Positions 12,944 to 30,100 of a stretch of 32,996 bases of DNA are shown here, piece by piece (positions within the stretch are counted from its first letter, which is position 1; every line of letters begins with the position of its first letter). The translations under genes were made by a program, and so were the position numbers. Source of the stretch: Porphyromonadaceae bacterium (lineage in GTDB: Bacteria; Bacteroidota; Bacteroidia; Bacteroidales; Porphyromonadaceae); NCBI GenBank assembly GCA_030528555.1, contig JAUMYQ010000017.1:1-32996 (forward strand), read 5' to 3'. The notes beneath the pieces are model-generated. The model was not told where the DNA came from. It saw only the letters and a list, made by a program, of their open reading frames with translations, and searched no databases.

Positions 12944-13096
12944 TTCGCTGTAAAATCGGAATATAAGGAGCTAATGATTTGATATTGAGTAGATAGTGAT
13001 ATGTCTAATCAACTAAGGGGAACGGATAAGAAACGAGCGAGGTGCTTCTTGCTTCTTTATTTTGCAACTTTACAAATATCCCTTACTTCTTACTTG

Positions 13097-13248: not shown

Positions 13249-13458
13249 ATGGCAATGAATAGGATAAAGGCTGTATTGCCAGAAAAACAACTAACAAGTA
13301 AATGGCTTGCCCAAGAACTGGGAAAGGCAGAAAACACGGTTTCTCGTTGGTGTTCTAATAAGGTGCAGCCTTCTTTGGAAAATCTTGTAGAGATTGCCAA
13401 AGTGTTAGATATAGAGGTGAGAATGCTCATCACTCCTACGAAAGATAAGTCGATATAA
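13249..13458 (+). CDS. Small XRE-family regulator ahead of hsdM
   Basis: A 69-residue protein that is almost entirely one Cro/C1-type helix-turn-helix: LTSKWLAQELGKAENTVSRW (residues about 15-34), then KVQPSLENLVEIAKVLDIEV. It is of the size and type of restriction-modification controller (C) proteins and of small transcription repressors. It lies 10 bases upstream of hsdM and behind the operon promoter, so it very likely controls expression of this restriction operon, perhaps through the inverted repeat at 13095-13208. That role is inference from position. Confidence 0.88.
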   Translation: MAMNRIKAVLPEKQLTSKWLAQELGKAENTVSRWCSNKVQPSLENLVEIAKVLDIEVRMLITPTKDKSI

Positions 13459-13468
13459 GCTACATACT

Positions 13469-15067
13469 ATGGCTAAGAAGAAGAAAATCGAAGAGGTGGC
13501 TACACCCAGCCTCGAAACCATACTTTTTAACTGTCGCGAGTATCTCCGCAGTAATGCTTCACTCAACGATAAGCGAGACTTGCTGCTGACGCTCGTTTTC
13601 CTTCGCTTCATTGGCGAGAAGTTTGAGGACGAGCAGCAGGCTCTACGCCAGCAATGCCTCGATAATGGCATGACCGACGAGGACGAAATCAAAGACTTCC
13701 TCGACCAGCCTGGTATGTATAGCGGTGTTGCCTTTGTGCCTGCTGCAGCTCGCTGGGGAGACCTCATTCTGCTTCCCCCGACAAAGCTTAACGCCTCCCT
13801 CGACGATGCTTTGAATGCTCTGGAAGATAGTGGCGAGACCTTCAAGGGCTGTGTGCGTTTGGGGCTCTTCACGAGCATCAACCTTGAGGCAAATGTCATC
13901 AAAAAGGTGATGGACGAGGTAAGTAAGATTTCGCACAAGACGTTCGGTACAGAGCGAGACCTCATCGGTCGGGTGTACGAATACTTCCTCAAGAGCTTTG
14001 CCATCAACGCCACTAAGGAGGAGGGCGAGTTTTATACGCCTCATGATATTGTAGAGCTGATTGCCGCCTTTATCGAGCCTTTCGATGGCACGCTCTACGA
14101 CCCTTGTTGTGGCTCGGGCGGTATGTTTGTGCAGTGTGCCAAGTATGTCGAGGCGAAGCAGGGCGACATCATGCAGGTCAATGTCTATGGGCAGGAGGCA
14201 GACCCAGCCACCTATCGCTTGGCAAAGATGAATCTGGCGATGCGTGGTATCTCGCACCACCTCGGCGAGCGCAATGCCTCCACCTTTACCAATGATATGC
14301 ACCGAGGCTTGAGCTTCGATTACATCATGGCGAACCCACCCTTCAACCTCAAGAAGTGGTACGATGTCTCCCTCAGCCACGATGCACGTTGGGCTGACTA
14401 TGGCTTGCCCCCCGAGGGCAATGCCAACTATGCTTGGATACTCCACATGCTCTCCAAGCTCCGCCCACAGCGTGGTGTGGCTGGCTTCCTCTTGGCCAAT
14501 GGGGCTTTGGGCGATGCCGATGCCGTGGGCATTCGCCAAAAGCTCATCGAGGCGGATAAGGTAGAGGCGATTGTCGTGCTGCCCCGCGAGCTTTTCTATA
14601 CGACCGACATATCCGTTACGCTGTGGATACTCAATCAGAACAAGCGTGGTGGACGCTGGCACGACCGCAAGCTCCGCTCTCGACAGGGCGAAGTGCTATT
14701 CATGGACTTGCGTAGCTGGACGGACAATCCCGTCAAGGGAGAGCAGAAGAAAAAAGTCATGTTTACCGAGGAGCAAATCCAGCGAGCCGTAGCCATCTAT
14801 CACCGTTGGCAGGCAGAGGGGACGGACGGAGCCAGCTATGCCGAGCCCGAACTCTATCGCTCGGTCGGTATAGACGAACTGAGGGCGAATGGCTTCTCGC
14901 TCATTCCCAGTCGCTACATTGAGTTTGTAGACCGTGATAGCCATATAGATTACCAACAAGTGCTGAGCCAGACGGCAAAGTGCGTGGGCGAACTGCTCCA
15001 GCGTCAAGAGCAGAACGATAAGACCCTCCGCAAAGCACTCCAACAACTCGGCTATGACATCCAATAA
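13469..15067 (+). CDS. hsdM: Type I N6-adenine methyltransferase HsdM
   Basis: The modification subunit, 532 residues. An N-terminal helical domain (about 12-150, TILFNCREYLRSNASLNDKR) precedes the N6-MTase domain. The AdoMet motif I is DPCCGSGG at 211-218 and the catalytic motif IV is NPPF at 289-292 (MANPPFN). EGEFYTPHDIVELI (about 185-198) is the usual HsdM segment before motif I. HsdM with HsdS methylates the host target and joins HsdR in restriction. It overlaps hsdS by 14 bases and follows the XRE gene by 10. It is noticeably GC-richer than the flanking CBASS and AbiE genes. Confidence 0.97.
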   Translation: MAKKKKIEEVATPSLETILFNCREYLRSNASLNDKRDLLLTLVFLRFIGEKFEDEQQALRQQCLDNGMTDEDEIKDFLDQPGMYSGVAFVPAAARWGDLILLPPTKLNASLDDALNALEDSGETFKGCVRLGLFTSINLEANVIKKVMDEVSKISHKTFGTERDLIGRVYEYFLKSFAINATKEEGEFYTPHDIVELIAAFIEPFDGTLYDPCCGSGGMFVQCAKYVEAKQGDIMQVNVYGQEADPATYRLAKMNLAMRGISHHLGERNASTFTNDMHRGLSFDYIMANPPFNLKKWYDVSLSHDARWADYGLPPEGNANYAWILHMLSKLRPQRGVAGFLLANGALGDADAVGIRQKLIEADKVEAIVVLPRELFYTTDISVTLWILNQNKRGGRWHDRKLRSRQGEVLFMDLRSWTDNPVKGEQKKKVMFTEEQIQRAVAIYHRWQAEGTDGASYAEPELYRSVGIDELRANGFSLIPSRYIEFVDRDSHIDYQQVLSQTAKCVGELLQRQEQNDKTLRKALQQLGYDIQ

Positions 15068-16175
15068 GACCAAGTGGGTACGCCTCGGGGATTATATTGA
15101 GGAGGTCGACGAGCGCAATAAAGAAGGGTTTGACTATCCGTTCTGTGGTATCAATAAGGATAAAACCTTCATGCCGACAGTGGCTGATACAAACAACTTA
15201 GACAAGACTAAATACAAGTTGGTTACACAAGGTACATTCGTATTTAGTGGTATGCAGACAGGGCGAGATGTTTGTATTAGAATAGCTTTACAGAGTGAAG
15301 AGGAAGTAGTCCTCATTTCTCCTGCATACACAACTTTTAGAGTAAAGAGAGAACTTGAACTCAGACCTTTGTATTTGTATATGCAATTTATCCGTTTTGA
15401 GATGGATAGGTATGGCTGGTTTCTGAGCGATGGAAGTATTCGGTCGAATTTGGACTGGGATAGATTCTGTGACATTCGCATTCCCCTGCCAAGTATGGAG
15501 GTGCAGCGAGATTTGGTGGCGACTTATGAGGGCTTGAAGCGTCTTGCCCAGGACAACGAAGCCTTGATTGCTCCGCTGACCGAAGCCTGCCAGGCATTCA
15601 TCGTCAACTGCAAACGCCAATACCCCTCCGTCCCCCTCGGAGACTATATCGAGGAGGTGGACGAACGCAACAGAGAGAAAAAATACTCAGTAGAGGACGT
15701 AAGGGGGATGACTATCACAAAAGAAGTAATTCCGACCAAAGCAGACTTAAAAAACAGCGACTTATCGAATTTCAAGGTTGTGCGACCTCGGGAATTTATT
15801 TACAATCCGAGAACACACGGAAAGAAAATAGGATTGGGATTTAATGTGACTTCAAAGCCTTTTATCATTAGCTGGAATAACATTGCTTTCAAGGTTACAG
15901 CTATCGACACGTTGCTCCCCGAATACTTGTTTATACTGTTTTGCCGTTCTGAATGGGATAGGAATGCCTGTTTTCGTTCATGGGGTAGCTCGACTGAAGT
16001 TTTCTCTTGGTCTGCTCTATGTGAAACAATTATCCCCTTACCGTCCCTCGAAGTGCAGCAGTCTATTGTGAACCTCTACCATTGTATGGAGGAGGCGAAA
16101 AGCATAGCCCGAGAGGCTCGTGAGCGACTCACGACACTCTGCCCCGCCTTAGTACAACGTGGTATAGATGCCTAA
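15054..16175 (+). CDS. hsdS: Type I specificity subunit HsdS with two recognition domains
   Basis: A complete 373-residue HsdS. Each half begins with nearly the same segment, LGDYIEEVDERN at residues about 11-22 and again near 195-206. Each half ends with IPLPSMEVQ or IPLPSLEVQ before a helical spacer. The two target recognition domains between these repeats (about 23-140 and 207-330) differ from each other and are AT-richer than the frame around them, as expected if domains are exchanged. The start overlaps the end of hsdM by 14 bases. The subunit sets the bipartite DNA target for methylation and cleavage; the target cannot be read from sequence. Confidence 0.95.
   Translation: MTSNKTKWVRLGDYIEEVDERNKEGFDYPFCGINKDKTFMPTVADTNNLDKTKYKLVTQGTFVFSGMQTGRDVCIRIALQSEEEVVLISPAYTTFRVKRELELRPLYLYMQFIRFEMDRYGWFLSDGSIRSNLDWDRFCDIRIPLPSMEVQRDLVATYEGLKRLAQDNEALIAPLTEACQAFIVNCKRQYPSVPLGDYIEEVDERNREKKYSVEDVRGMTITKEVIPTKADLKNSDLSNFKVVRPREFIYNPRTHGKKIGLGFNVTSKPFIISWNNIAFKVTAIDTLLPEYLFILFCRSEWDRNACFRSWGSSTEVFSWSALCETIIPLPSLEVQQSIVNLYHCMEEAKSIAREARERLTTLCPALVQRGIDA
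15084..15119 (+). repeat. hsdS internal repeat, copy 1
   Basis: CTCGGGGATTATATTGAGGA and onward, encoding LGDYIEEVDERN. It matches 15636-15670 at most positions, with mainly third-base differences. Such repeats allow recombination that swaps recognition domains within or between hsdS genes. Confidence 0.8.
15636..15670 (+). repeat. hsdS internal repeat, copy 2
   Basis: CTCGGAGACTATATCGAGGA and onward, the direct partner of 15084-15119 about 550 bases away. It opens the second recognition domain of the same gene. Confidence 0.8.
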
Positions 16176-16193: not shown

Positions 16194-17069
16194 ATGAGCA
16201 AGATTTCGATACGATTTTTCAATGACCGAGAGGTGAGAGCCGTTTGGGACGAAGTAGAGTCTAAATGGTGGTTTTCTGTGTTGGACATCATAGGCGTGCT
16301 GAATGACCAAGACGACTACAACAAAAACAGAAACTACTGGAAGTATCTCAAGACGAAGCTCAAACGAGAGGGCAGCGAAGTGGTTAGTGCCACTAACCAG
16401 TTGCGTCTGCTTGCTCCCGATGGCAAAAAGCGTTTGAGTGACACCCTTGATGACAAAGGCGTGGTGGCACTTGCTCAGAGCTTCCCCAACGCACGGGCGA
16501 TGCGCTTCGTTGAGTGGTTTGTAGGCGGAGAAGAAACGATTGATGGGCGTAGTCGCTCCAAGGCTTATGCCCTCTTTGAGAGCGAGCTTTTGGAGGGGAT
16601 CGAGGTCGGTACGGTGCGAGGGCTACAACAGATACATGCCTACCTCTTTGGCGGACTTTACGACTTTGCAGGGCAAATCAGGCAAGTCAATATCGCTAAA
16701 GGGGGATTTCAGTTTGCTATGGCTCAGTTTCTCCCCGCCACGCTTACGCAGATCGAGCAAATGCCAGAGCAATCTTGGGAACAGATAGTGGACAAGTATG
16801 TAGAGATGAATATTGCCCACCCCTTCAGAGAAGGGAATGGGCGTGCTACACGTATTTGGCTCGACTTGATGCTTAAGAAGCAACTTGGGCTGTGTGTAGA
16901 CTGGAGTCGAGTCGATAAGTATGCATATCTCGAAGCCATGAGAGCCAGCGTGTCAGACGCCACTGCGTTGAAACACCTGCTACATCCAGCTATGACAGAT
17001 AAAATTAATGATAGAGAAACCTTTATGAAGGGGATTGACTACTCGTACTATTACGAGCAGGAAGACTGA
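16194..17069 (+). CDS. BRO-N / Fic fusion protein
   Basis: A 291-residue protein with two parts. Residues about 1-115 match the BRO-N (phage antirepressor-like) domain: IRFFNDREVRAVWDEVESKW, then FSVLDIIGVLNDQDDY and ARAMRFVEWFVGG. Residues about 120-275 are a Fic domain with the complete catalytic motif HPFREGNGRATR at 209-220 (H209 catalytic). A segment SELLEG at 130-135 fits the Fic inhibitory motif (S/T)xxxE(G/N), placed before the Fic core as in class II proteins. Fic enzymes usually transfer AMP to a protein hydroxyl. It lies between hsdS (18 bases away) and hsdR (28 bases before the likely hsdR start), so it is part of the operon. Its target and its link to restriction are unknown. Confidence 0.9.
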   Translation: MSKISIRFFNDREVRAVWDEVESKWWFSVLDIIGVLNDQDDYNKNRNYWKYLKTKLKREGSEVVSATNQLRLLAPDGKKRLSDTLDDKGVVALAQSFPNARAMRFVEWFVGGEETIDGRSRSKAYALFESELLEGIEVGTVRGLQQIHAYLFGGLYDFAGQIRQVNIAKGGFQFAMAQFLPATLTQIEQMPEQSWEQIVDKYVEMNIAHPFREGNGRATRIWLDLMLKKQLGLCVDWSRVDKYAYLEAMRASVSDATALKHLLHPAMTDKINDRETFMKGIDYSYYYEQED

Positions 17070-17097
17070 GCATTCCCCCGATAAATATGATAAGCCT

Positions 17098-20000
17098 ATG
17101 AAGTTTTACGAAAGCGAGTACGAAGAAGCCCTCATCGACCTCCTCACCGAGGTAGGTTGGGACTACACACACGGTAGCGAGCTACACCGCACGAATAGAG
17201 AGATGCTGCTGATGGACGACCTCCGTAGCTTCCTCGAGGAGCAATACACCGAGCTGGAGAGCGAAGATGTAACGGGCATCATCGACCACCTCCGCCACAC
17301 GGGTGGGCAGACGCACTTTGCCCAGCTACGCTCCACCTATCGCCTCCTCATTGAGGGCTACCGCTATACAAGACAGAGCGATGGGCAGGCTTTCGATATC
17401 GCTTACATAGACTTTGACGAGGTGGGGCGTAATCGCTTTCGAGTGGTCAATCAGTTTGAAGTGGGCTATGGGCAGGGGGGCGACATCCGCATCCCCGATG
17501 TGCTACTTTTCGTCAATGGCATACCGCTCTGTATCTTCGAGCTGAAAAACCCAACCGATGCCACGGCTACAATCGCCGATGCCTACGAGCAGATTCACAC
17601 ACGCTACAAGAGGGATATCCCCCATCTCTTGAGGTATTGCCCCCTCTCCTGCATCAGCGATGCCACACGCAACAACACCAAGCTCGGCACGACCTATACG
17701 CCCTACGAACACTATTATGCCTGGAAAAAGGTGCGCAACGAAGACCCAGCCGCCCAGAGCGGTATCGACCAAGTGCGTACCATCGTGGGCGGTGTGTACT
17801 CACCCAAACGTTTCTTGGAAATTCTGCGTGACTATGTCTATTTCCCCGATAGGGGGAGCGACCGAGAGGAGGAGGTCGTGTGTCGCTACCCGCAATTCTT
17901 CGCCACACGACAGCTGAGAGACCATGTGCTCAAAGCCTACGCCGAGGGCGACCGCCGTGGAGGTACTTATTTCGGAGCTACGGGCTGTGGCAAGACCTAT
18001 ACCATGATGTTTTTGGCTCGACAACTCTCGCTCCGCTCGCCCGAGCTCGGTTCGCCCACCATTGTGATGATTGTAGACCGAGAGGATTTGCAGTCGCAGG
18101 CTGGCAAACTCTTTCTCCGCTCCGAAGAGTTTCTCTCGCTCGGCTCGACCAAGATTATAGAGAGTCGTGCCGAACTCAAAACTGAGATGAGCCTACGCCC
18201 TTCGGGAGGCTTTTTCATTTGTACGATACAGAAGTTTTGTGAGGAGACGGGACTGCTCAACGACCGCCGCAACATTGTTTGCTTCTCGGACGAAGCCCAC
18301 CGCACGCAAGTCAGGCTCAATACGACGCTCAAAGTCAAAGACAAGATGCCCGAGGGCAAAGAGGGCGATACGGATAAGCTGGGTGCTTTCGTCACCAAGC
18401 CCTATGCCGAGCTGCTGCGTACGGCTTTCCCCAATGCGACCTTCGTAGGCTTTACGGGGACACCTATTGACGACACCATTCAGGTATTCGGGCAGATTGT
18501 CGATAGCTATACCATGCAGCAGGCTGTGGCAGATGGCATTACCCGAGATATTAAGTATATCCCACGCATAGCCAAAGTAACCCTCGAGGCAGAGAAAGTG
18601 CAGCAGATAGATGCCTATTATCAGCAGTGTGCCGAGGAGGGAGCGACCGAAGCGGACATTGCTACGAGCAAGAAAGCGATGAGTGCGATGGAAGTTATCT
18701 TGGGCGATGACGAGCGTCTGGAACGCTTAGCAACCGACATTATAGCGCATTACACACAAGCCTGCGACAATCGTGCCGATGTCGTGCAAAAGGCGATGAT
18801 TGTTTGTAGCAAACGGCACATCGCCTATCGCCTCCTCAAGAAGTTTGAGCAGCTTCGCCCCGACTGGTTCGTGGAGCGTAAGTCGCCCGATGATAGCCAC
18901 CTGAGCAAAGAGGTGCTACAGCGACTCAGCCCCATGCCTACCATCGCTATGGTAGCTACCCGTAGCAGCAATGACGCAGCTGACATGTACCACTATTTGG
19001 GCGATAAGAAGCGTATCAAGGAGCTGGACGAGGCCTTCAAAGCCCCTGAGAGCAACTTCCGTATTGTCATCGTGGTAGATATGTGGATTACGGGCTTCGA
19101 TGTGCCTTGCCTCACTTATCTCTACAACGATAAGCCTCTGCAGAAGCAAACTTTGATACAGACCATCAGCCGAGTAAACCGCAACTATCCAGGCAAGGAC
19201 TTTGGCTATGTGATTGACTACATAGGTATTCACAAAAATATGATGGAGGCGATGCGTCGTTTCGGAGGTGAGGACTTCGGACCCAGCGAGGACGATGTAG
19301 CTCAAGCCCATGAAGCCCTACGCATCGAGTTAGAAGTCATTAGGCAAGTATTCTCTGGCTTTGACCTATCTCCCTTTACGGACAAGGGGGCGACACCCTT
19401 GGCACGCCTCGACTGCCTCTCTCAAGCTGCCGAATATGTGATTACGATGAGCGAGATGCTCCATGTAGACAGTAACAAGGGCGTACCTCAAAAGGTCGAT
19501 GCCAAAACCTTCTTCCTTGCCCATGTGAAGCGACTCAGAGCGGCTTACGACATTTGTCAGCCCTCGAATGTCCTCTCACACGATGAACTCTCCCTCTCGC
19601 AGTGCTACATGGCTGTGGCATCGTATGTACGTAAAACTTCGGGCGAGAAACACGATGTGGAGAGCATGAATAGAGCTGTCGAACGCATGGTGTCGGAGGC
19701 ACTGCGTTGCAACGCTGTGGTGAGCATCCTCGATACAGATGTGGAGGAGCAAATCTTTAGCCCTGAGTTTACCGAGCAACTCAAAGACATTAAGCTCCCT
19801 GCCACAAGGCTCGAGCTCCTCATCAAGATGCTTCGCAAGACCATTAAGGAATACAAAAACACCAATAAAGTAGCTGCCGAGCGATACGAAGAACTCTTAC
19901 GTAAGACGCTGGAGGTTTATCACGAGCGTAGGGCTGCACTCTCTGCGGCAGAAGCCTCAGCCACGCAGAGCGAAGCCGTGAGTGCCATCATTGACGAAGC

Positions 20001-20388
20001 CACAAGGCAGGCGATGGAGTTGCTTCGTCAGTTGGGCGAGGATAAGGAGAGCTTCCGAGGACTGGGATTGACTTTCGAGGAGAAAGCCTTCTATGACATC
20101 TTGATGCACCTCAGGGACAAATACAACTTCGTCTATGGCGAGGACAAACGTGTAGGCTCTCTCATTATCAATGACAAGTGCAAGGCTCTGGCCAAGAAGA
20201 TTAAAGAGCTTATTGATGTGCAGTCGTCCTTTACCGACTGGCTCAACAATCAGAAGATACGTGCAGACCTCAATCAGAAGATCTTCTTCTGTCTTCGAGC
20301 CTCTGGTTATCCCCCTCAGTACAACAAGGAGGTCTTCGACCAAGTGATGGAGCAGGTTGAGCACTTCAAGACCTACGCAGAGGAGTAG
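17098..20388 (+). CDS. hsdR: Type I restriction enzyme HsdR (second system)
   Basis: HsdR of 1096 residues from ATG 17098. A TTG at 17035 would add 21 residues overlapping the fic gene and is rejected because the conserved N terminus starts at MKFYESEYEEALIDLL. The nuclease has D134 (RIPDVLL), E148 and K150 (FELKNP), with Q165 and Y170 after it. The motor has Walker A GATGCGKT at 293-300 and DEAH at 398-401, then GFTGTP and motif VI QTISRVNRNYPG. A long helical C terminus follows. It is only distantly similar to the HsdR at 639-3746, so the window holds two different type I families. It ends the restriction operon; the CBASS genes start 47 bases later. Confidence 0.96.
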   Translation: MKFYESEYEEALIDLLTEVGWDYTHGSELHRTNREMLLMDDLRSFLEEQYTELESEDVTGIIDHLRHTGGQTHFAQLRSTYRLLIEGYRYTRQSDGQAFDIAYIDFDEVGRNRFRVVNQFEVGYGQGGDIRIPDVLLFVNGIPLCIFELKNPTDATATIADAYEQIHTRYKRDIPHLLRYCPLSCISDATRNNTKLGTTYTPYEHYYAWKKVRNEDPAAQSGIDQVRTIVGGVYSPKRFLEILRDYVYFPDRGSDREEEVVCRYPQFFATRQLRDHVLKAYAEGDRRGGTYFGATGCGKTYTMMFLARQLSLRSPELGSPTIVMIVDREDLQSQAGKLFLRSEEFLSLGSTKIIESRAELKTEMSLRPSGGFFICTIQKFCEETGLLNDRRNIVCFSDEAHRTQVRLNTTLKVKDKMPEGKEGDTDKLGAFVTKPYAELLRTAFPNATFVGFTGTPIDDTIQVFGQIVDSYTMQQAVADGITRDIKYIPRIAKVTLEAEKVQQIDAYYQQCAEEGATEADIATSKKAMSAMEVILGDDERLERLATDIIAHYTQACDNRADVVQKAMIVCSKRHIAYRLLKKFEQLRPDWFVERKSPDDSHLSKEVLQRLSPMPTIAMVATRSSNDAADMYHYLGDKKRIKELDEAFKAPESNFRIVIVVDMWITGFDVPCLTYLYNDKPLQKQTLIQTISRVNRNYPGKDFGYVIDYIGIHKNMMEAMRRFGGEDFGPSEDDVAQAHEALRIELEVIRQVFSGFDLSPFTDKGATPLARLDCLSQAAEYVITMSEMLHVDSNKGVPQKVDAKTFFLAHVKRLRAAYDICQPSNVLSHDELSLSQCYMAVASYVRKTSGEKHDVESMNRAVERMVSEALRCNAVVSILDTDVEEQIFSPEFTEQLKDIKLPATRLELLIKMLRKTIKEYKNTNKVAAERYEELLRKTLEVYHERRAALSAAEASATQSEAVSAIIDEATRQAMELLRQLGEDKESFRGLGLTFEEKAFYDILMHLRDKYNFVYGEDKRVGSLIINDKCKALAKKIKELIDVQSSFTDWLNNQKIRADLNQKIFFCLRASGYPPQYNKEVFDQVMEQVEHFKTYAEE

Positions 20389-20435
20389 GGAATGTATAAC
20401 AGAATTGTAAAATAAATAATAAAACAACCCTCTTT

Positions 20436-21482
20436 ATGGATTACAAAAGTAAAATCACTGCTCTTTCAGATAGATATAACCCCGAGAGAACCCAAGTAGT
20501 AGAAAACAGGCAGTTCAGCAATAGTGACCTACGCTTGACAGACAACGACGTTATTCGGTATGTCAAAAGAGCAATGTGTGCAGTAGACGAGGAGTATACT
20601 AGAAGGACAAAACAAGCTGGAGAGAATGCTAAACTTCATCTGAGCAATGCACTAACTGATGTTTCATTTGAGTATCAAGGGTCTATTATGACCGATACGC
20701 ATATTAGGGGAGCTAGTGATATCGACCTTTTGGTGCTTTGTGACAAATTCCACAGCACTGAAATAGCTAAGGTTCGAGACGAGATAAGCAGTCCATCTAG
20801 ATATTACACACTACAAGAACGAGGCCTTCTTGAGAGATATAATCAGACCTTTTCTGCATATCAAGGAAATAGCCTCAGTGATTTGGCTAATCTTAGGGCT
20901 GATATTGAAAGAATAATGAGACAAACCTACGATGAGTGTGACACATCACACGCTAAAGCTGTAAAAATAAGGAATAAGCATCTACATAGGGATGTCGATA
21001 TTGTTACTGCATCTTGGTTTCAATCCTTGGATTATGTTTTACATGATATGCGCAAAGAGAGGCTGGGGATCAAGATATTCAATAAAAATAAGGGGTATGC
21101 AGAAGGCCCAGATTATCCATTCTTGAGTATCTCAAGAATAAACTTGAGAAGTGCTGAAACTTTTGGCCGTTTGAAAAGAATGATCCGTTTTCTCAAAAAT
21201 GTGAGAACAGACTCTAGTCTAAACATTCCTTTAAGTAGTTTCGATATCAATGCGATATGCTATTCAATTCCTATACGAGATTATGCAAATTGTGACTACA
21301 AGCAATTGGTTCATGTTTTGTGGCACACAATGTTTTATCTTTGGTATGATAAGAAAGAAGGTCAGCTAAAATCTGTTATTGGAGATGAGTATGTATTCCA
21401 AGGAAAGCCTGAAAAAGTAGAAGCATTAAAGATGTTAGAGAATGAGGTGTATAAGATCAAAACTGATTTAGAGAAAGCATGA
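20436..21482 (+). CDS. CBASS CD-NTase (cGAS/DncV-like nucleotidyltransferase)
   Basis: A 348-residue nucleotidyltransferase. The active-site signature is GS at 82-83 followed by D95 and D97 (YQGSIMTDTHIRGASDIDLL), with the third acidic position at D186/D188 (HRDVDIV). Lengths and motifs fit the cGAS/DncV-like CD-NTases of CBASS anti-phage systems, which make a cyclic nucleotide on infection. The partner is a TIR-STING effector that overlaps it by four bases. Bacterial STING effectors in characterised systems respond to cyclic di-GMP made by a CdnE-type enzyme, so cyclic di-GMP is the expected product here, by inference. It is AT-rich compared with hsdM/hsdR just upstream. No consensus promoter was found in the 47-base gap, so it may be read from the restriction operon. 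Confidence 0.92.
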   Translation: MDYKSKITALSDRYNPERTQVVENRQFSNSDLRLTDNDVIRYVKRAMCAVDEEYTRRTKQAGENAKLHLSNALTDVSFEYQGSIMTDTHIRGASDIDLLVLCDKFHSTEIAKVRDEISSPSRYYTLQERGLLERYNQTFSAYQGNSLSDLANLRADIERIMRQTYDECDTSHAKAVKIRNKHLHRDVDIVTASWFQSLDYVLHDMRKERLGIKIFNKNKGYAEGPDYPFLSISRINLRSAETFGRLKRMIRFLKNVRTDSSLNIPLSSFDINAICYSIPIRDYANCDYKQLVHVLWHTMFYLWYDKKEGQLKSVIGDEYVFQGKPEKVEALKMLENEVYKIKTDLEKA

Positions 21483-22420
21483 AACCAAGGATATTTATAG
21501 GCTCTTCTTCGGAAGCATTAAACGTAGCCCAACGTATAAAAGATTTTTTCTCCCCAGATTATGAGTGCTTTTTATGGACGGATGATGTGTTCAAAAACAA
21601 TGAATCTTTCTTAGAAACGCTGGTCAAATCTGCGAGTTTATTTGATTTCGGGTTTATGGTTTTCTCCGCTGACGATAAGGGAACCATACGAAATGAGCAT
21701 TTTGAAACACCACGAGATAATATTTTGTTTGAGTATGGTCTATTCCTTGGCAGGGTTGGTTTAGATCGAGCCTTTATCATAGCAGAGGAAACGGTAAAAA
21801 TCCCAACCGACATGCTAGGCATTACTCACACTCGATATATCGTAAAGACTGGCGATCAAGGAAAAAAAGAAGCAACAGATTCTCTAGAAAAGGGACTTGA
21901 GAAATTAAAAAAACAGATTGATGAGAATCTCAATTTAGGCCATCTAGGGCTTCTCCCCTCAACTGTAATTGCGATTTCTTACTTTGAAGGATTTGTTAAA
22001 CTTGCAGCAGAGTGGATTATGAATAGTATCCCTAACATAGAGTTAGAAGGCAAGAGTTATAAGAAATGCATTCTTTACATCAAAATACCAGAAACTCTTG
22101 ATGCAGATATAAAGAAAAGCGCGAAACTGTTCTATAAAAAACAAGGACTTCATGAAACTGAAATAACAACAGGTCATCGGAATTATCCTATACATTTTGA
22201 AGCAAAGGGTAATAGTAATGATACATTAGAAATCTATGATATGCCTACAATACTTAGCGGTATCGACAAAGCTATCGATATGTATTTTAAAGTAGGGCAT
22301 ATTGGAAAAACTAATCAACAGCAATTGGCAGAGGATAATGAGATGAATAACTTCAAACGGGTTCTTCAGTTATTGATTAACGGGGATGCATTTTGTCGCG
22401 AATGTGTGAAGATTATCTAA
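21479..22420 (+). CDS. TIR-STING effector of CBASS
   Basis: A 313-residue fusion. Residues 1-150 are a TIR-like NAD-hydrolase domain: PRIFIGSSSEALNVAQRI, FLWTDDVF, then RDNILFEYGLFLG with E85 as the likely catalytic glutamate. Residues about 153-313 fit the bacterial STING ligand-binding domain: GLLPSTVIAISYFEGFVKLA at 157-176 resembles the first helix of STING, followed by a mixed alpha/beta region. There is no membrane segment, as expected of bacterial STING. In known systems cyclic di-GMP binding makes TIR-STING polymerise and destroy NAD+, killing the infected cell. It shares an ATGA overlap with the CD-NTase. The STING assignment rests on pattern, length and context; a plain TIR effector with another sensor domain is the alternative. 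Confidence 0.85.
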   Translation: MKPRIFIGSSSEALNVAQRIKDFFSPDYECFLWTDDVFKNNESFLETLVKSASLFDFGFMVFSADDKGTIRNEHFETPRDNILFEYGLFLGRVGLDRAFIIAEETVKIPTDMLGITHTRYIVKTGDQGKKEATDSLEKGLEKLKKQIDENLNLGHLGLLPSTVIAISYFEGFVKLAAEWIMNSIPNIELEGKSYKKCILYIKIPETLDADIKKSAKLFYKKQGLHETEITTGHRNYPIHFEAKGNSNDTLEIYDMPTILSGIDKAIDMYFKVGHIGKTNQQQLAEDNEMNNFKRVLQLLINGDAFCRECVKII

Positions 22421-22452
22421 AATGTTATTCTTTCTTTCGATAATCAACGGTA

Positions 22453-22486
22453 AACTCCACAGCTTGCTTGTGCAGGTTGTGGAGTT
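22453..22486. terminator. Hairpin between CBASS and mobilization gene
   Basis: AACTCCACA (22453-22461) pairs with TGTGGAGTT (22478-22486) over a 16-base loop. It sits between the convergent TIR-STING (plus) and mobilization (minus) genes and probably ends both. CTTATTTCTT follows on the plus strand. Confidence 0.6.
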
Positions 22487-22487
22487 C

Positions 22488-22910
22488 TTATTTCTTCTCT
22501 CGACTATCAAAAGCCATCGTTAGCTGTATTGCTTGTACTTGTAGCCTAATGATAGCTACGGAGCAGATTTCGAGCTGATGTATCATTCTTTGTGCTGTTT
22601 TAACCGAGTGGTAGCTGTTGAGCGTCTTGATGGCTTCGTTGTAACTCACACCGATGACTCTCAATCTAGTGATGATGCTGTCCAATTCTCTCAGATAGGG
22701 TTCGGCTGTCTTATCTTGTGTGATGACCTTAAAGGATTGATTTAAGAGCCTCCCTCTGACGTAGTCGCTCTTGGTCTTCGCTCCCGACTTTCGGTATAGC
22801 TCGATGAGCTTTTGCTGGTCTTCGGGCTTGGGTATTCTGATGTGCCATCTGTCCCATCTTGGGCAGGTGGCACATCTGCCGTCTGGCTTGTCTGTCTTCT
22901 TTCTTTTCAT
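22488..22910 (-). CDS. Mobilization accessory protein (MobC-like)
   Basis: A 140-residue basic protein resembling relaxosome accessory proteins of Bacteroidales mobilizable elements. An unusual N terminus KKTDKPDGRCATCPRWDRWH precedes the ribbon-helix-helix-like segment (HIRIPKPEDQQKLIELYRKS, then TKSDYVRGRLLNQ). The helical C-terminal half contains LRVIGVSYNEAIKTLN, comparable to the LNQIARKLN region of MobC. Such proteins bind oriT and help the relaxase nick. Here an oriT-like hairpin lies directly upstream, but no relaxase gene follows on the minus strand; the next DNA is the convergent CBASS operon. Family assignment is moderately sure, function inferred. Confidence 0.72.
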   Translation of the reverse strand: MKRKKTDKPDGRCATCPRWDRWHIRIPKPEDQQKLIELYRKSGAKTKSDYVRGRLLNQSFKVITQDKTAEPYLRELDSIITRLRVIGVSYNEAIKTLNSYHSVKTAQRMIHQLEICSVAIIRLQVQAIQLTMAFDSREKK

Positions 22911-23273
22911 TGGTTTCGTTGTTCTTTAATCACGACTTCGGAGGTGCGGAGCCGCACAGGCGGTTCCCTATTCCCCATGCAAGAAGCAAGGGTCTTTGTG
23001 CGACAAATGGCAATTTGTGGTACAAAGACACACCTTGCTATGGACAAAAGAGGGATAGGTTCAATCGCTGATGGCTTAGCATTCAGTTAGTCATATAGTT
23101 CTTGAGTTCAGAGCTTGTTCTATAATTTCAAGATTGAGTTTAGAGGTCATTTCAGAGGTCGTTATATGACTTCAAAGCTAAGTTTAGAGGTTACTTTTGT
23201 GGTTGGTCTAAATAGACTAACTGACCAATTGACCAACTGACCTAAGTCTATGCTAACTTGAGTCGGTCTCAAC
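22911..23273. other. oriT-like region, no gene
   Basis: About 360 bases between the mobilization gene and the HTH gene. It holds a GTGCGG/CCGCAC stem near 22946-22959, a long hairpin at 22994-23027 followed by CACACCTTGCTATGG, and a repeat-rich part (23090-23260) with repeated AGAGGT, an inverted AGTCATATA/TATATGACT pair, and three TGACCAA-type units. A minus-strand TAGCTTTG (23173-23180) could be the mob promoter -7 box, without a good -33. Confidence 0.55.
22994..23027. other. Candidate oriT hairpin
   Basis: CTTTGT (22994-22999) pairs with ACAAAG (23022-23027) and inside it ACAAAT (23003-23008) pairs with ATTTGT (23013-23018), loop GGCA. A GC-rich palindrome lies 40 bases to the left and CACACCTTGCTATGG directly to the right. 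The location upstream of a MobC-like gene suits an origin of transfer. The nick site was not identified. Confidence 0.5.
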
Positions 23274-23582
23274 CTACTTTCTGACTGTTAGAATGGGGTT
23301 ATAATGCCTTTCGAGCATTGCTTGGATGTCGCTCTGTTTGTAGAGTATCTTCCCTCCTATCTTGTAATAGGCTAATGTGCCGTTGCTACGGTACTCTTGA
23401 AGCGTTCGTGTGCTAAGTTTGAGTAGCTCACAAACCTCCTCGCCAGTGAGGAAGACCTCACCGCCTAACATCGGGCGAGCCGAGGCACAATAACGCTCCA
23501 GCTTGGCTAATACACCCTCCATCATCTGCGTAAACAGCTTCATTTGAGGGTTTTCGCTTGTAATGATTTCATTCTCTGCCAT
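23274..23582 (-). CDS. Helix-turn-helix protein (excisionase-like)
   Basis: A 102-residue protein with an N-terminal helical part (KLFTQMMEGVLAKLERYCAS) and an HTH_17-type winged helix at about 42-95: FLTGEEVCELLKLSTRTLQE, then GTLAYYKIGGKILYKQSDIQ. In Bacteroidales mobilizable elements such proteins act as recombination directionality factors or regulators next to integrases. It lies 7 bases after the HTH gene at 23590 on the same strand, so the two are likely co-transcribed. Confidence 0.87.
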   Translation of the reverse strand: MAENEIITSENPQMKLFTQMMEGVLAKLERYCASARPMLGGEVFLTGEEVCELLKLSTRTLQEYRSNGTLAYYKIGGKILYKQSDIQAMLERHYNPILTVRK

Positions 23583-23589
23583 AGTGCAT

Positions 23590-23859
23590 TCATTCAGTTT
23601 TTGAGTTCAATGCTTCTGTGATGTCGCTCTCTTTGTAGTAGTACTTGTGCCCGACCATTGAAAAGGGGATTTTGCCCGTATCTCTGAGCGTCTGCAAGGT
23701 ACGCTTGCTGATGCTCAACCTACGGCAGACGGCTTCGTTGTCGAGCCACGCTTCTGTTTGGGGCGGATTGCCGATGAGTTGCTCCACTCGGTGGATGAAG
23801 TCAGCAAATGAGGAGCGGAGCTGCTCCCACGCTTTGCCCTCTACGATGATAATTTTCAT
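23590..23859 (-). CDS. Helix-turn-helix protein (excisionase-like), second
   Basis: An 89-residue protein from ATG 23859 (MKIIIVEGKAWEQLRSSF). The open frame extends 51 codons further upstream, but that part (SPNFASKRKGKQAHLPRLAT) looks non-coding and contains the promoter, so the inner ATG is chosen. The HTH_17 domain is at about 40-88: WLDNEAVCRRLSISKRTLQT, then GKIPFSMVGHKYYYKESDI. It is a relative of the gene after it (23274-23582); paired HTH genes of this kind are common in Bacteroidales integrated elements. Confidence 0.85.
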   Translation of the reverse strand: MKIIIVEGKAWEQLRSSFADFIHRVEQLIGNPPQTEAWLDNEAVCRRLSISKRTLQTLRDTGKIPFSMVGHKYYYKESDITEALNSKTE

Positions 23860-23940
23860 TGCTTCGGTTGGTTTTAAGTTGCGTTTCTGTATGGTGGCAA
23901 GTCGGGGCAGATGCGCTTGCTTGCCTTTTCTTTTGGAGGC

Positions 23941-23948
23941 AAAATTAG
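23941..23948 (-). promoter_or_regulatory. -7 box for the HTH gene pair
   Basis: TAATTTTG on the minus strand matches TAnnTTTG. CTTG lies 19 bases upstream (23968-23971). It gives a leader of about 75 bases before the ATG at 23859. Confidence 0.5.
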
Positions 23949-24239
23949 GGCTAAGCATGCACCTCTCAAGAGCCTCAGGAGGAGCAAGGAAATAGCGGGA
24001 AAAGGCAGGCAAAGGAGCAGGGTAAAAAAGGGTTTACTTGCGGTAATGAGATGAGGTGTCGGCTCGTTCCTGCTTATTGAAAATTGGGGTTCTCAATTAA
24101 GCCCTAAAGAGGGCTTTCCTTTGGGTATAAAGTAAAGCCTTGGCTACTCTATACCCAGAGGAGTGTCGGGGTAGTACCTAAGCCTTGCTTGCGTCCAAAG
24201 AGCCTGAGTATGTCGTACTCGTTCGGGCTTTTCTTTACA

Positions 24240-24365
24240 AAGGGCGGTCTTGCCGAGCAAGGTGGGAGGTAACGAATACGACCGCCACAATACAAAAAGT
24301 CCTGCGGTGGAGATTCTTCCCTCCCTCCGCAGGACTTGACCTTGATAGGCAAACAGACCGCCCTT
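24240..24365. repeat. Nested inverted repeats
   Basis: Outer arms AAGGGCGGTCT (24240-24250) and AGACCGCCCTT (24355-24365) are perfect 11-base complements. Inside lie AAGTCCTGCGG (24297-24307) and CCGCAGGACTT (24327-24337), also perfect, plus another GACCGCC near 24280. A plus-strand TACCTTTG (24367-24374) follows the outer arm directly. This could be a structured RNA, an integrase or Xis binding site, or a regulatory site. Confidence 0.7.
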
Positions 24366-24392
24366 GTACCTTTGCCCGAAATGAAGACGACC

Positions 24393-25682
24393 TTAGGCGG
24401 TGGACGGCTCGGCTTCGTTAGCTGTGGCTCGCTTGCGTGGTGGGCAAACTCGCAGAGCCTTGCGAAGCGTCTGCGTCTGTTCGCTACCCATCAGTGGTAG
24501 CATCTCCTTGGCGATTTTCTGCTTGCTGACCTTGGCATATAGCTCTGTAGTACTGATAAAGCGATGCCCTAACATCTTGCTTACCGTTTCAATCGGCAAG
24601 CCGTTCTCCAAACAGATGGTTGTGGCAAAAGTATGCCGTGCGGTGTGCGAACTCGCCTCTGTGTGGGGCGAACATCCAGCCTTGATGAGTAGTTCACGGA
24701 TTTTACGATTGAAGTGGCTGTTTACAGGGAACTCTCGGAAGTATAGTCCCTCTGAGCGTCCCTGCCCTACAAAGGCGAGAATCTCCTCGACAATGGGTAG
24801 CAGTGGCACGATACAACAATTCTGCGTCTTGGTGCGGTAGAGCGAGATGTATCTTCGTCCATCGCCGAGGGTATAGATGTCCTCCATCCGCAATTTCTTG
24901 AGGTCAGAGAACGCCAAGCCAGTAAAGCAACCCAAGAGGAATATCAGTCTGATATGATTGTCCACAGAGCGGTGCGGACGATAAGCCAAGAGCTTCTGGA
25001 GTTCGTCACCGCTGATCGAGTTGCGTTCGTAAGCAGGGGTGTCTATGTCGATGAGGTCAAAAGGGTCTTCTCTCACGACGCCCTCCATCAAAGCTCTGCG
25101 AATTACTTGGTGCAGGTGTCTGAGGCGGTTGGCAACAGAACTCACCTTATTGCCTAAGTCTCGGAGCATATAGAGGCGATAATCCTCTATCAGTCCCTTG
25201 TTCACTTCGTAAGGCATACATTCGCTTTGCCCCCTCGAAGCCAAGAAGCGAGCAAAGCTCTTGTAACTATCCCCAAATGCTCTTATGGTGGCTTTACTAA
25301 GCGATTTACCCTCATAAGCCCTCTTTGCCTCGCAGACCATTTGATATAGCTCTAAGATGGACTGCTGGGGCTTTGCCTTGCGAAGAAACTGCTCCTTGAG
25401 GTACTCGGCTGTGATGTATTGCTCCTCTCGGAGAATGCGTTCATAGAGTGCATTCAGTCCTTGCTCGACGGCATTCAGTGCGTTGTTGATGCCTTGAGCC
25501 TTAGGGGAGCTTGCTTTTACTCTTGCCCTCTGAGCGTTCCAATCTTCGGGGGCTGTTTGTTGCTTGGTAGAGAACGAAGCAGTCTTGCCATTACAAGAAA
25601 TGCGACAACGGATAAGGCATAGCCCCTCCTCATTCGCCTTGCTTCGGTCGATAAAGAATAAAACTGAGAATGTACTTTTCAT
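24393..25682 (-). CDS. Tyrosine recombinase (integrase) 1
   Basis: A 429-residue site-specific recombinase of the Bacteroidales type. An N-terminal arm-binding domain (about 1-105), a SAM-like core-binding domain (about 110-210) and a catalytic domain are present. Catalytic residues visible are H346 and R349 (SHTARHTF), H373 (LGHRF) and the nucleophile Y382 (TELYAK). The position of the first catalytic arginine is TGLAFSDL, so alanine replaces it; the same kind of substitution is known for IntDOT, where another arginine compensates. The C terminus has a basic, degenerate tail after residue 400. It is the downstream partner of the recombinase at 25692, separated by 9 bases. Confidence 0.95.
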   Translation of the reverse strand: MKSTFSVLFFIDRSKANEEGLCLIRCRISCNGKTASFSTKQQTAPEDWNAQRARVKASSPKAQGINNALNAVEQGLNALYERILREEQYITAEYLKEQFLRKAKPQQSILELYQMVCEAKRAYEGKSLSKATIRAFGDSYKSFARFLASRGQSECMPYEVNKGLIEDYRLYMLRDLGNKVSSVANRLRHLHQVIRRALMEGVVREDPFDLIDIDTPAYERNSISGDELQKLLAYRPHRSVDNHIRLIFLLGCFTGLAFSDLKKLRMEDIYTLGDGRRYISLYRTKTQNCCIVPLLPIVEEILAFVGQGRSEGLYFREFPVNSHFNRKIRELLIKAGCSPHTEASSHTARHTFATTICLENGLPIETVSKMLGHRFISTTELYAKVSKQKIAKEMLPLMGSEQTQTLRKALRVCPPRKRATANEAEPSTA

Positions 25683-25691
25683 CGTCTTGGT

Positions 25692-26945
25692 TTAGTTGGT
25701 TAAACGATAGTGGGCAATCTCGGGCAGGATACGCTCTACATCCCGAAACACACGCTCGGGCGAGGTCTCGGCATAAACTTGCGTAGTCTTGATTTGACTA
25801 TGCCCTAACATCTTCGACACGCTTTCGATAGATACCCCCTCGGAGAGGGTCATCTGTGAGGCGAAAGTGTGGCGAGCCATATGGAAGGTCAAGCATTTGT
25901 TGATTTTGCAGAGCTTCGCCATCTTCTTCAGGTGGATATTGACCGTATCACAGCCAGGAATGGGCAGAAGATAACCCTTGGGCGGTTCGTGGCGAAAGGC
26001 TCGGGTGTGAATGCCTCGGTACTGCTCAATGATGGCAGCAGCCTCGGGCAAGAGGGGAATGTGGCACACATTGCCTGTCTTGATGCGAGGCTTGCGTATC
26101 CAAGTCATACCACCCTCCTCGACAAGATGTTCAGCCGTAAGGTGGTAAATATCCGTGTACGATAAGCCCGTATAGCAAGCAAAGACAAACATATCCCTTG
26201 AAACCAGCTCATAATCTCCTAATTGCGTTTCATCAAGGGCAATAATACGCAAAAGCTCCTCTTTCGTAATGTAGCGTGGCGAACCGACATCCCAGCGGAT
26301 AGAATAGCCCAAGAAGGGATAGGTGTCGATGATATGCCGTTTGTATAGGTCTTTCAGTAGCGAAGCCAGCATAGAGAGGTAGCCAGCCGTAGTATTGAGT
26401 TTGAAAGCCTTCTCTCGGGAGAGATACACTTCAAAGTCTTCAACCAAGGCTCTACCAACTTTCTGAACAGGCAAGTCGCTTACTCGATAGTGGTGCTTGA
26501 TGAATGCCTCGAAATGCTTGCGAAATAGCAAAATGCACTTATACCTGCGTTCACTGCGGTCTATACCCACACGCTCTCGAAAGCGTGCCAAATAGCCCTC
26601 CAAATGATAGAGCAAACCTTGGCTATCGCTGTTAAGCCCGAATACAAGGGATTTTACCGCCTCTGCCGTAACATCTTCGCCTTGCTTACGCTGTAAGCCT
26701 TCAAAGGCTCGATGTACAGCGAGTTGTAAGCGGTCGAGTTCTGCGTTTACAGCTACGGCTTCGGAACTCTTGCCCACGAGTCTGCTCTTACGGCTATCCC
26801 ATAGTTTGGGCGAGCAAGCAATTTTACAACTGAATTGCACCATTGTTCGCTCTACACTGAGGCGAGCCATAATGGGGCTTTTTCCTTCCTTACTCTGTGT
26901 GCCTCGCTTGAGGTAAAAGAGCAGTTTCAATGTCTTTTCTTTCAT
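25692..26945 (-). CDS. Tyrosine recombinase (integrase) 2
   Basis: A 417-residue site-specific recombinase with the same domain order as its neighbour: arm-binding N terminus (MKEKTLKLLFYLKRGTQSKE), core-binding domain, catalytic domain. Catalytic residues are H355 and R358 (FHMARHTF), H382 (LGHSQ) and Y391 (TQVYAE). The first arginine is again replaced (CYTGLSYTDI, serine), as in IntDOT. It is the first gene inward from the right end of the element, behind a TAACTTTG promoter box, and is co-transcribed with integrase 1. One or both catalyse integration and excision; why two are kept is not evident from sequence. Confidence 0.95.
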   Translation of the reverse strand: MKEKTLKLLFYLKRGTQSKEGKSPIMARLSVERTMVQFSCKIACSPKLWDSRKSRLVGKSSEAVAVNAELDRLQLAVHRAFEGLQRKQGEDVTAEAVKSLVFGLNSDSQGLLYHLEGYLARFRERVGIDRSERRYKCILLFRKHFEAFIKHHYRVSDLPVQKVGRALVEDFEVYLSREKAFKLNTTAGYLSMLASLLKDLYKRHIIDTYPFLGYSIRWDVGSPRYITKEELLRIIALDETQLGDYELVSRDMFVFACYTGLSYTDIYHLTAEHLVEEGGMTWIRKPRIKTGNVCHIPLLPEAAAIIEQYRGIHTRAFRHEPPKGYLLPIPGCDTVNIHLKKMAKLCKINKCLTFHMARHTFASQMTLSEGVSIESVSKMLGHSQIKTTQVYAETSPERVFRDVERILPEIAHYRLTN

Positions 26946-27168: not shown

Positions 27169-30100
27169 TCAAGCGGATAGCCTTTTCTCGCTTCCCCTTA
27201 CTCTCAGCTCCCATATTTCCGCATAGAAGCTCGCAAGTTCCGGCACCTTAATGAAGGTGCGGAAGCGTTCCTTCTGAATGATTTCATTTGTCACTGAAAA
27301 CTCATAGTCGGTGCTTTTCTTGGCAAAGACTGCTGCCCAAGCATCAAAGCTGTTGATACCTTGCTTTTCAAGGGCTTGCGGACGCAGGTATTTGAAGAGC
27401 AAATAGAGCTCGGTCAAACTATTGGAGATTGTAGTGCCGGAGAGGAAAGTCGCTCCCAAGTCCTTGCCCGACCGCTCCTGAATGGTACGAATCGCAAAGA
27501 GCATATTGAGGGCCCGTTGTGAGCCATCGGGATTCCCCAAGCCTGATACACGGTCATGACGGGTATTGAACATCAGGTTCTTAAATCGATGCGACTCATC
27601 CACAAAGAGGTGATCAATGCCCATCATCTTAAAGTCTACGGCATCGTCCTTGCGTTCGGCTATGCTGTCTTGAATGTCGCGGAGTTTAACCTCTAAGGTC
27701 TGCTTCCGTTTTTCCAAACCCTTGAGCATACCCCGAGAGATGTCCCTACCCTGTTGGCGTAACACCTCGAGGTTCTCTTCCACCGAGTCCATCTCCTTTT
27801 GCAAGATAGCCTGCTGTATTTCGAGGGCTTGAGGGATCATTCCAAACTGCTCGTGGGTAAGGATGATACAGTCCCAGTCGTTGTTCTTGATGTCGTTGAA
27901 AATACGTTGGCGGTTCTGCTTGGTGAAGTCCTCTTTACCGGGATAGAGGATTTTGGCATTAGGGTAAGCTTTGCGAAAGGTATCGGCAATGTCAAAGACA
28001 TTCGCCTTTAGACCGATAATCATCGGCTTATTCACCAAGCCCAATCGCTTCATCTCGTAGGCTGCTGTACACATAATGAGAGTCTTGCCTGCTCCTACTT
28101 CATGGTCGCAGATACCCCCTCCATTGGTTTTGAGCATCCACACAGCATCCTTTTGGCTCTCATACAGGTCGGGAATCCCTAACCTCTTGAGGTCGAGGTT
28201 AGGGAAAGATTGATGCGAGCCGTCAAAGTTTGGACGGACGAAGCAGTTAAAGAGCTCATTGTAGCGATCAGCAAGTTGCTCCTTAAAGCTCTCAGGACTT
28301 CTTCCCAGCCAATCGACAAAGCCTTGGCGGATCTCTTCAATCTTGGCATTGGCTTGCTGTATTTTCTCACCATCTCTGACTTTGATGGTTTTCGTTTCCC
28401 CCGTGATCTTATCTACCACCTCCTTGTTCTTATTGATGTCGGGGATGGTATTATGTAAGGCATGTTTGAGGAGATGTAAACCATCATAGCGACGAAATTC
28501 CCCTTGCACCGCATACTTGTGCCAGATACTGGCATTCTTCCTATCACAGCTAATCGTGTACTCATCCATGTTGGAATGGTAACTGATACGAATGTCCGTT
28601 TCAAAGAACTCGGAGGCAAACTTCTCATATACACTACTCGGAATCCAACGCTCTCCGAAGTTAAAATCAAGGTCGCTAAAAGGAATTGGCGTTGGACGAG
28701 CTGCCATGAGTGCTGCCAAGCTCTGCCGGCCTTCCTCATGGTCGGGGTGGTCAAGCAACCAAGAGGCAAGCCTATCGGCTTTCTCAATCACATTGCCTGA
28801 TACGAACTTGTCGGCAACCTCATAACCATCTATCTCGGGATTGAAATAGATGCGTCCTTCCAAGGCAGAGAGGATATCCGACTCTTCCATCTCAGGAAGC
28901 AGAGAACTCATATAGTCAAGTTCTACCGTTCCGTACTTATTGAGCGAAGCACTGAGTGCTTCCAAGGGGGCGGCAGCAATGGTGAGTTCGGATGTGGAGA
29001 ATGCCGTTGGATGGTCAAAGATATCGGCTTTGACAAATTGACCATTTTCTGACCTTTCGAGGAAGAGCATCTCTACCCCTGTGGCATCCATCTTGATGAT
29101 ATCGATATTGCTCTTCTGATTGAAATGTCCCCAGCGAGCGACATAGCTATCATATAGTCGATTGAGTTTGCTACGCTCCTCTCTTTCTTCGGAGTGGTTG
29201 ATTGCTTCATAGTCGTATAGGCGATGATAGCTCTCACGTACCTCAATATAGGCTTTCAGTCTTGACAGCTGCGCATAAGGCAAATCCATCGGATTGAAAG
29301 TCGGATGCCTTTTCAAATCGGAGATAAACCCCACTTGACCATTTTGTAAGACGATAGAACCATCCCTCAAATGTGAATCGGGAGCAGAGAGAAAAGGGCG
29401 AGGAGAAGCGTCAAAGATTTTCTTAGTCTCGGTAGTGGATGGAGCCGAATAAGACTCGTTTTCATTTGCGAAATCGAAGAGGCTGCGTTCGTAGCCACTT
29501 GCCACTCCCCCTTTTTTGCCGGCTCTATGACGACGCGGTGTGGTTAAATGACCGAGCTTTGTTGCAGGAGTTGTGTCCGATTTCTGCTTGGGCGCAGGGA
29601 TAGGTTCTTTAATACTTTCGTTGAACAGTGCCACCTCTTGTGTCCATAGCGTATACTCCTCAGGAGCAAAAAGAAAAGTTTCAGACCAATTAGGGTTCTC
29701 CATTATGGGATGGTGGTCATCGTCAAAGTAGACCGTTTGCCCATTCATCTCTCGGGGAGGTTCTACATCTGTTCGTATTTCGGGGACCTCCTTCTGGTAT
29801 TGATGGTGTAGCGTCAACGTAGGAACACCTTCGGGAGCGGACTCCTCTTGAGAGGGGAGATTAACCGTAGGCTCTTGTCTTTCTTCTGTATGCCCTACCT
29901 CAGTTTCTCCCTCTTTTGTCTCTTCTTTCTTCTCTTCAACCACAGATTCCATTTGGGGAATAGTTTCTTTAGTATATCGTCCTCGGACAACTTCCTCGAG
30001 TTCTGCGATTTCGTGAAGTTTCTTAGGTTTGAAGTATAGATCTCGCTCTATGCCTAAGCCATGTATGTTGACTTCCGCCATCTCATCGAGGGACATAATA

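Follow-up and report, generated by a model that had tools for sequence, protein, structure and literature searches.

The closest described relatives of the locus considered here are CBASS operons whose effector joins a TIR domain to a bacterial STING domain. According to the available parts of the reports, PcSTING (7EBD) recognizes c-di-GMP through R233, Y235, H238, D252 and F171 and makes its oligomer and activation contacts through K212 and F303 (Ko et al., PMC8748872), and the TIR residues named for SfSTING are R78, N80, E84 and D110 (PMC9402430). The CdnE encoded beside TIR-STING in E. lactis is described, in the portion of the paper available, as yielding 3'3'-c-di-GMP as its sole product, with NAD+ cleavage triggered by that ligand only (PMC12421889). 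On the side of mobile elements, the target of MTnPi1 is given the form TTAC NNNNN AA (PMC4755523, PMC5704250, both in their available parts).

The window, that is, the whole stretch of 32,996 nucleotides analysed here, comes from a draft genome of a Porphyromonadaceae bacterium. We read it as containing a CdnE/TIR-STING CBASS that is cargo, together with a type I restriction-modification (RM) system and a Fic-type gene, of a trans-mobilizable integrative element nested in an integrative conjugative element (ICE), and we put the probability of this whole chain at roughly 0.75. The CBASS itself is a standard TIR-STING operon, and its identity as an ordinary two-gene CdnE/Cap12 system, a new member of a known family, is virtually certain. 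Both open reading frames were found in the sequence as originally predicted, cdnE at 20436..21482 and cap12 at 21479..22420, both on the plus strand, encoding 348 and 313 amino acids and coupled by an ATGA overlap. CdnE, a CD-NTase and predicted c-di-GMP synthase, matches the PADLOC cyclase model at 1.8e-137 and the solved structures 6wt9 and 6wt8 at 9.6e-78 and 6e-50, the latter labelled in the PDB as 'STING-associated CdnE c-di-GMP synthase', and scores 19.8 bits with the general Pfam nucleotidyltransferase model, slightly below the cut-off of 21. The residues G82/S83, D95, D97 and D188 lie where they had been placed, D186 being an equally good candidate for the third carboxylate since it falls within the same H184-RDVDIV stretch, and the GS pair and catalytic acidic residues are invariant in an alignment of five sequences.

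The effector Cap12 has a TIR domain at about residues 4-120 and a STING domain at about 157-313. The predicted TIR-STING CBASS identity is borne out by family models, by homologues of solved structure, by the motif residues and by a structure model. Pfam places CAP12-PCTIR_TIR at 4-120 (6.4e-29) and prok_STING at 160-297 (3.6e-32), the NCBIfam Cap12 equivalog NF050172 is matched with 514.8 bits over a cut-off of 450, the PADLOC Effector/TIR model gives 4.4e-122, and the full-length solved TIR-STING 9lmq, which we take to be ElSTING of Epilithonimonas lactis, is matched over 1-313 (E 1.2e-87). E85 is present in FEYGLF, and the STING stretch quoted in the prediction begins at residue 157. An AlphaFold2 model built from eight input sequences (window and loci) is of moderate quality (pLDDT 74.9, pTM 0.56; pLDDT of the five models 42-75). 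Its C-terminal domain has the STING fold that had been proposed, the best domain match being PcSTING (Foldseek, 7ebd_A: TM 0.85, rmsd 2.7, 76% identity); the top PDB matches are TIR-STING/c-di-GMP complexes (9lmq, E 2.7e-30), and animal STING is also among them. The full-length model reaches a TM of just 0.50 to 9lmq, so the relative placement of its two domains is not trustworthy. A SAVED or other sensor domain at the C terminus is ruled out by the prok_STING match and the STING fold of the model.

Calling such proteins described but rare is fair: prok_STING occurs in one of 26 genomes of the genus, one of 38 of the family and three of 393 sampled from the order, the genome studied here being counted each time. 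No phage-borne relative was found at 1e-5 in 50,697 phage records, and a scan of viral contigs gave 88 pattern matches, not one of which encodes a relative. Among 33 matching plasmid records none covers 80% of the query, and the best 20 of these 33 matches are all confined to residues 1-149, the TIR part.

The CBASS lies in an element of about 14.3 kb. Window positions 10956-12946 and 27209-31678 align at 92% and 94% to adjoining stretches of an uninterrupted homologue (L040), where they overlap by 11 bp; since both flanks meet there, 12947-27208 is an inserted element. It is nested in a larger ICE and splits the helicase/methylase gene of that ICE into an N-terminal piece (27169..31629, minus strand; 94.6% amino acid identity over 1-1477 in L040), whose last codons extend into the element, and a C-terminal piece (11168..12946, minus strand; 95.7%). 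In another genome, G008, a 2065-aa open frame holds a 96%-identical relative of the C-terminal piece, that is, the gene is whole, and comparison with L040 and G008 makes the ends precise and identifies the empty site. In helicase-gene orientation the left junction (12936..12952) reads CCGATTTTACAGCGAAAT|TTGCGATTTC and the right junction (27207..27226) reads TTCTATGCGGAAAT|ATGGGAG. Along the gene, the whole site reads TTCTATGCGGAGATCTGCGATTTC; in the window, element DNA takes over after TTCTATGCGGAAAT, and the other side has element DNA CCGATTTTACAGCGAAATTTGCGATTTC. The left junction of the window deviates from the core, with CAGCGAA in place of TATGCGG. The ends are defined by this empty-site comparison and not by repeats, a direct-repeat search having given no pair joining them among the best 20 of at least 60 families.

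The host ICE (1-11095) has defence genes of its own, namely a second type I RM system (an hsdS piece at 81-632 and hsdR at 639-3746) and an AbiEi/AbiEii pair (9534-11095), and encodes at 3962-5353 a 463-aa protein that matches no Pfam family at 1e-3. Its helicase gene looks like an insertion hotspot. A second split point, at about residue 63-74 of the C-terminal piece used as query, appears to exist in L073, G012, G023, G024 and G025, and in the first of these (Prevotella nigrescens F0103, NZ_CP072340.1) a Tyr-duo element with ABC-transporter cargo sits there. On contig C38 of the genome studied here (L044:16163-18760, G000:C38) a MobC/T4CP-type coupling-protein part is fused in frame to the helicase C-terminal part at TTTCATGCTGAGAT|CTGCGATTTC, near the attachment core of the element; this reflects either recombination between two att-like sites or mis-assembly.

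From its left end, the element carries on the plus strand a small gene, helix-turn-helix by eye, at the left edge of the cargo (13249..13458), followed by the PADLOC-identified type I RM genes hsdM (13469..15067), hsdS (15054..16175) and hsdR (17035..20388, start codon uncertain; 1.9e-246). Within this operon, between hsdS and hsdR, lies the Fic-type gene (16194..17069; PADLOC PDC-S04 4.2e-160, SoFic 8.1e-5), whose product contains HPFREGNGR, presumably the Fic motif, and matches PDC-S13 with its N-terminal residues 2-110 (7.9e-29). The CBASS comes next, with a G+C of about 0.37 against 0.45-0.56 across the RM genes, a difference suggesting that it entered the cargo separately. The remaining genes are on the minus strand: a MobA/MobC_2 relaxosome accessory protein (22488..22910; Pfam MobC_2 7.3e-43; NCBIfam Bacteroid_MobA 74.3 bits, under the cut-off of 150), an excisionase-like HTH_17 protein (23274..23582; Pfam 4.6e-14, TIGR01764 over cut-off), a second HTH_17 protein (23590..24012; Pfam 9.1e-11) and two Pfam-identified tyrosine recombinases at 24393..25682 (HxxRH 346, LGH 371, Y382) and 25692..26945 (HxxRH 355, LGH 380, Y391). 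An obvious first catalytic Arg is absent near TGLAFSD/TGLSYTD from both recombinases. Bacteroidetes recombinases such as IntDOT tolerate the loss of this residue.

The earlier description of the vehicle as mobilizable holds with a correction: integrases and MobA/MobC_2 do lie within a bounded element, but that element sits inside a gene of a larger ICE, and a search for the relaxase family PF03432, the only one searched, found none between 12947 and 27208. Nor was one found in the covered parts of other copies, several of which run into contig ends, while PF03432 matches occur elsewhere in the genome in seven of seven genomes searched. In the genome studied here MobC_2 immediately precedes a relaxase on contigs C36 and C38, the second of which further carries the ICE transfer genes TraJ, K, M and N, all over cut-off. 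Upstream of the element's own mobC lies a 53-bp palindrome, GCAAGGTGTGTCTTTGT...ACAAAGACCCTTGC (22986-23038, minus strand), whose pattern arose in none of 100 shuffles of the window; the DNA fold of 22930-23045 (z -2.7) was equalled by only 4 of 200. The palindrome occurs 28 times in 17 of the 26 genus genomes, C36 and C38 included (reversed-pattern control 0/26), and the block common to the element and C38 measures 112 bp at 83%. Twelve upstream regions were aligned, five from element copies and seven from other loci, six of which adjoin PF03432 (the exception is L069); the exact palindrome stands in eight and CTCC(A/G)AAGTC in all twelve, and farther upstream the element and the ICE-type loci are little alike. 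The palindrome is read as a putative oriT common to helper ICEs; alternatively, it may serve the mob genes as an operator. The absence of a PF03432 relaxase, taken with a palindrome common to relaxase-bearing loci, leads us to infer that the element is mobilizable only in trans. Its excision and integration would take place at a short core (TATGCGG at most of the junctions seen), and its oriT-like site and MobA/MobC_2 would bring in the relaxase, coupling protein and pore from an ICE in the same cell; excision, nicking and transfer are all predicted steps.

Further copies were sought with the left end of the element (window 12947-13240), which gave 15 matches in 12 of the 26 genus genomes; the nine with E <1e-40 (two from this genome, seven from six others) were analysed and the six weaker ones dropped. 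At six of the nine junctions the sequence is exactly CCGCATAAAATCGG; the other three, in the window, G008:C36 and G018:C17, vary. Four copies (window, G003, G018:C6 and G018:C17) are in the helicase gene at this core and five have other flanks. MobC_2 was seen in G003, G004 and G018:C6 and as a fragment in G009, and in these same four copies at least one of the two integrases is disrupted, absent or exchanged for another, so that mobility may be decaying. A named relative comes from Prevotella sp. oral taxon 299 F0039 (OT299; NC_022111.1, a record listed as a plasmid). There, too, the helicase gene is split in the same way, and the element has recombinases with 75% and 68% identity, a palindrome off by two bases and a MobC_2 relative at 44%.

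These damaged integrases, and the lack of PF03432 in the covered parts of the copies, are what one would expect if the CBASS were real and its vehicle a relic, with the relaxase lost by decay and the operon now inherited vertically with the ICE. We consider this the less likely reading, since the two recombinases of the window retain their full length and their HxxRH, LGH and Tyr, copies stand at the helicase site and at other sites, one draft genome holds two copies whose cargo is the same, and the OT299 relative, with both integrases full length and no relaxase among the seven of its eight cargo ORFs scanned with Pfam, gives the arrangement the look of a stable design.

The second copy in this genome was recognized by its prok_STING match at C20:161436. 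It aligns to window 12951-15101, 15471-15742, 16056-23038 and 23275-24071 at 84-90% DNA identity; identity is 97% for the small left-edge gene and, at the protein level, 90% for HsdM, 96% for Fic, 94% for HsdR, 97% for CdnE, 99% for Cap12 and 86% for MobC_2. Cap12 differs at three residues (74, 126 and 302), none of them a named ligand, oligomer or TIR residue. HsdS, in contrast, is only 50% identical (15054-16175 against L004:10662-11759, with HsdM, Fic and HsdR at 90-96%), and its target-recognition domains have probably been exchanged. The C20 copy adjoins a gene resembling, by eye, an ABC-F ATPase; DNA of this gene matches in all 26 genus genomes, so the insertion site is probably chromosomal. 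The contig stops short of the integrases, and that end of the copy lies beyond it. Because the genome is a draft (85.6% complete, 42 contigs), C34 and C20 might stem from different strains binned together rather than represent two copies per cell, and the 84-90% identity between the copies would fit such mis-binning. This is a serious minority possibility; the listed contamination is 0.29%, and mis-binning, even if true, would still leave two related elements at two sites.

The cargo could be followed in seven of the nine copies, G020:C12 and G018:C17 reaching a contig end. Besides the two CBASS-bearing copies, G004 carries a type I RM system with PDC-S02 and a tyrosine recombinase, G018:C6 a type III RM system with PDC-S13 and an SNF2/HKD helicase, G009 a type II/IIG RM system, G008:C36 a type II methylase and restriction enzyme, and G003 an RHS gene next to one of SUKH type. 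The stretch of G008:C36 compared gave no match to mobC or to an integrase, so that the slot is not closed on the right. Two opposed HsdS genes lie beside a tyrosine recombinase at L061:7023-11455, as in phase-variable type I RM systems. We tentatively propose, at somewhat less than even odds, a family of relaxase-less Bacteroidales elements that use the ICE helicase gene as a recurrent site and an oriT copy as their ticket, and that swap type I, II and III RM systems and TIR-STING CBASS in one cargo slot reaching from the left end to mobA/mobC_2.

Fifteen other Cap12 loci were screened with the proteins of the window only, and the mobC or the two HTH_17 genes of the element appeared at 1e-8 in none, so the evidence that links CBASS to this vehicle comes from two copies within a single genome. 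Among these loci, the small left-edge gene has a 58% relative in L016, a tandem pair of recombinases in L017 resembles that of the window at 28-35%, L019 has a single one at 26%, and weak type I RM relatives (23-27%) lie nearby in L018 and L019.

With restriction systems in six of seven cargoes and an RHS locus in the seventh, and with HsdS proteins that differ between the two copies of this genome, one may ask whether the main role of the defence genes is to keep out rival plasmids, ICEs and other copies of the element, serving its stability rather than acting on phages. This seems improbable, as relatives of the TIR-STING CBASS are described as antiphage in the available parts of PMC9402430 and PMC12421889; moreover, the cargo of the OT299 relative is of the TonB-receptor/HmuY/PepSY kind (PADLOC matches 0/8 cargo ORFs), so defence cargo is not obligatory.

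By alignment, all seven checked PcSTING residues, F171, K212, R233, Y235, H238, D252 and F303, are matched in Cap12, as F172, K213, R234, Y236, H239, D254 and F305, and R78, N80, E84 and D110 of SfSTING correspond to R79, N81, E85 and D111, unchanged across eight aligned sequences. That 3'3'-cGAMP or some other nucleotide is the main signal for Cap12, and that CdnE yields a mixed product, is very improbable: SfSTING does bind 3'3'-cGAMP (~700 nM; PMC9402430) and a preference for it has been proposed for class II bacterial STING (PMC8748872), both as given in the available text, but the RNY of Cap12 is a class I RX(Y/F) motif of the c-di-GMP type, its seven checked residues are those of PcSTING, and the c-di-GMP synthase label belongs to a solved relative of CdnE, 6wt8. 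On the main reading, phage infection would lead CdnE to make 3'3'-c-di-GMP; this ligand would shut the STING lid and cause Cap12 to assemble into filaments, whose packed TIR domains would hydrolyse NAD+ and stop growth ahead of phage release. Synthesis of c-di-GMP, NADase activity and defence are the predicted functions of the pair.

If the proposed family of relaxase-less elements holds, its members would be to conjugative elements what satellites are to phages, disabling a gene of the helper while resident and shielding the host from phage. A bounded vehicle with an identified empty site makes the spread of TIR-STING testable rather than presumed, type I RM and CBASS may be able to travel jointly in one exchangeable slot, and the oriT-like site offers a direct assay target for recognition by a helper relaxase.

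Compared with PcSTING (Prevotella corporis, 7ebd), 9lmq and SfSTING (Sphingobacterium faecium, 7un8), the operon has the same two-gene layout and TIR-then-STING order, and it shares with known TIR-STING CBASS the class I RX(Y/F) lid, the catalytic Glu and the STING fold. It differs in sequence, Cap12 being 76% identical to 7ebd over the STING domain and 46-47% to 9lmq/9lmr over the full length. The available parts of the PcSTING, ElSTING and SfSTING papers describe no flanking element of this kind, and in the titles and beginnings of abstracts of the open-access literature no TIR-STING operon on such an element was found.

As for the vehicle, the available descriptions of the MTnPi1-3 'Tyr duo' mobilizable transposons of Prevotella intermedia (PMC4755523, PMC5704250) give them two tandem tyrosine recombinases, as here, and the left junction of the window, TTACAGCGAAA, can be likened to the MTnPi1 target form; the comparison is one of descriptions, not of sequences. 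MTnPi1-3 also have relaxases and primase-family genes, neither of which was found in 12947-27208 by the models run. The IMEs inserted in snf2 or traG of streptococcal Tn5252-type ICEs (PMC5357655, in part) are likewise hitchhikers that disrupt a helicase or conjugation gene; those entering snf2, traG and maff2 are described as using serine integrases, whereas tyrosine recombinases are found here, in Bacteroidales, and the terms 'restriction-modification' and 'abortive infection' are absent from the text of that paper. A canonical IME or iMOB carries its own relaxase, and the PF03432 search between the ends of the element found none. The iOriT elements (PMC11389934) are described, in the available portion, as integrative and helper-dependent, with an oriT-like site and no relaxase found, and the same is proposed here. 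Unlike that class as so described, the element retains a MobA/MobC_2 accessory protein of its own next to its putative oriT.
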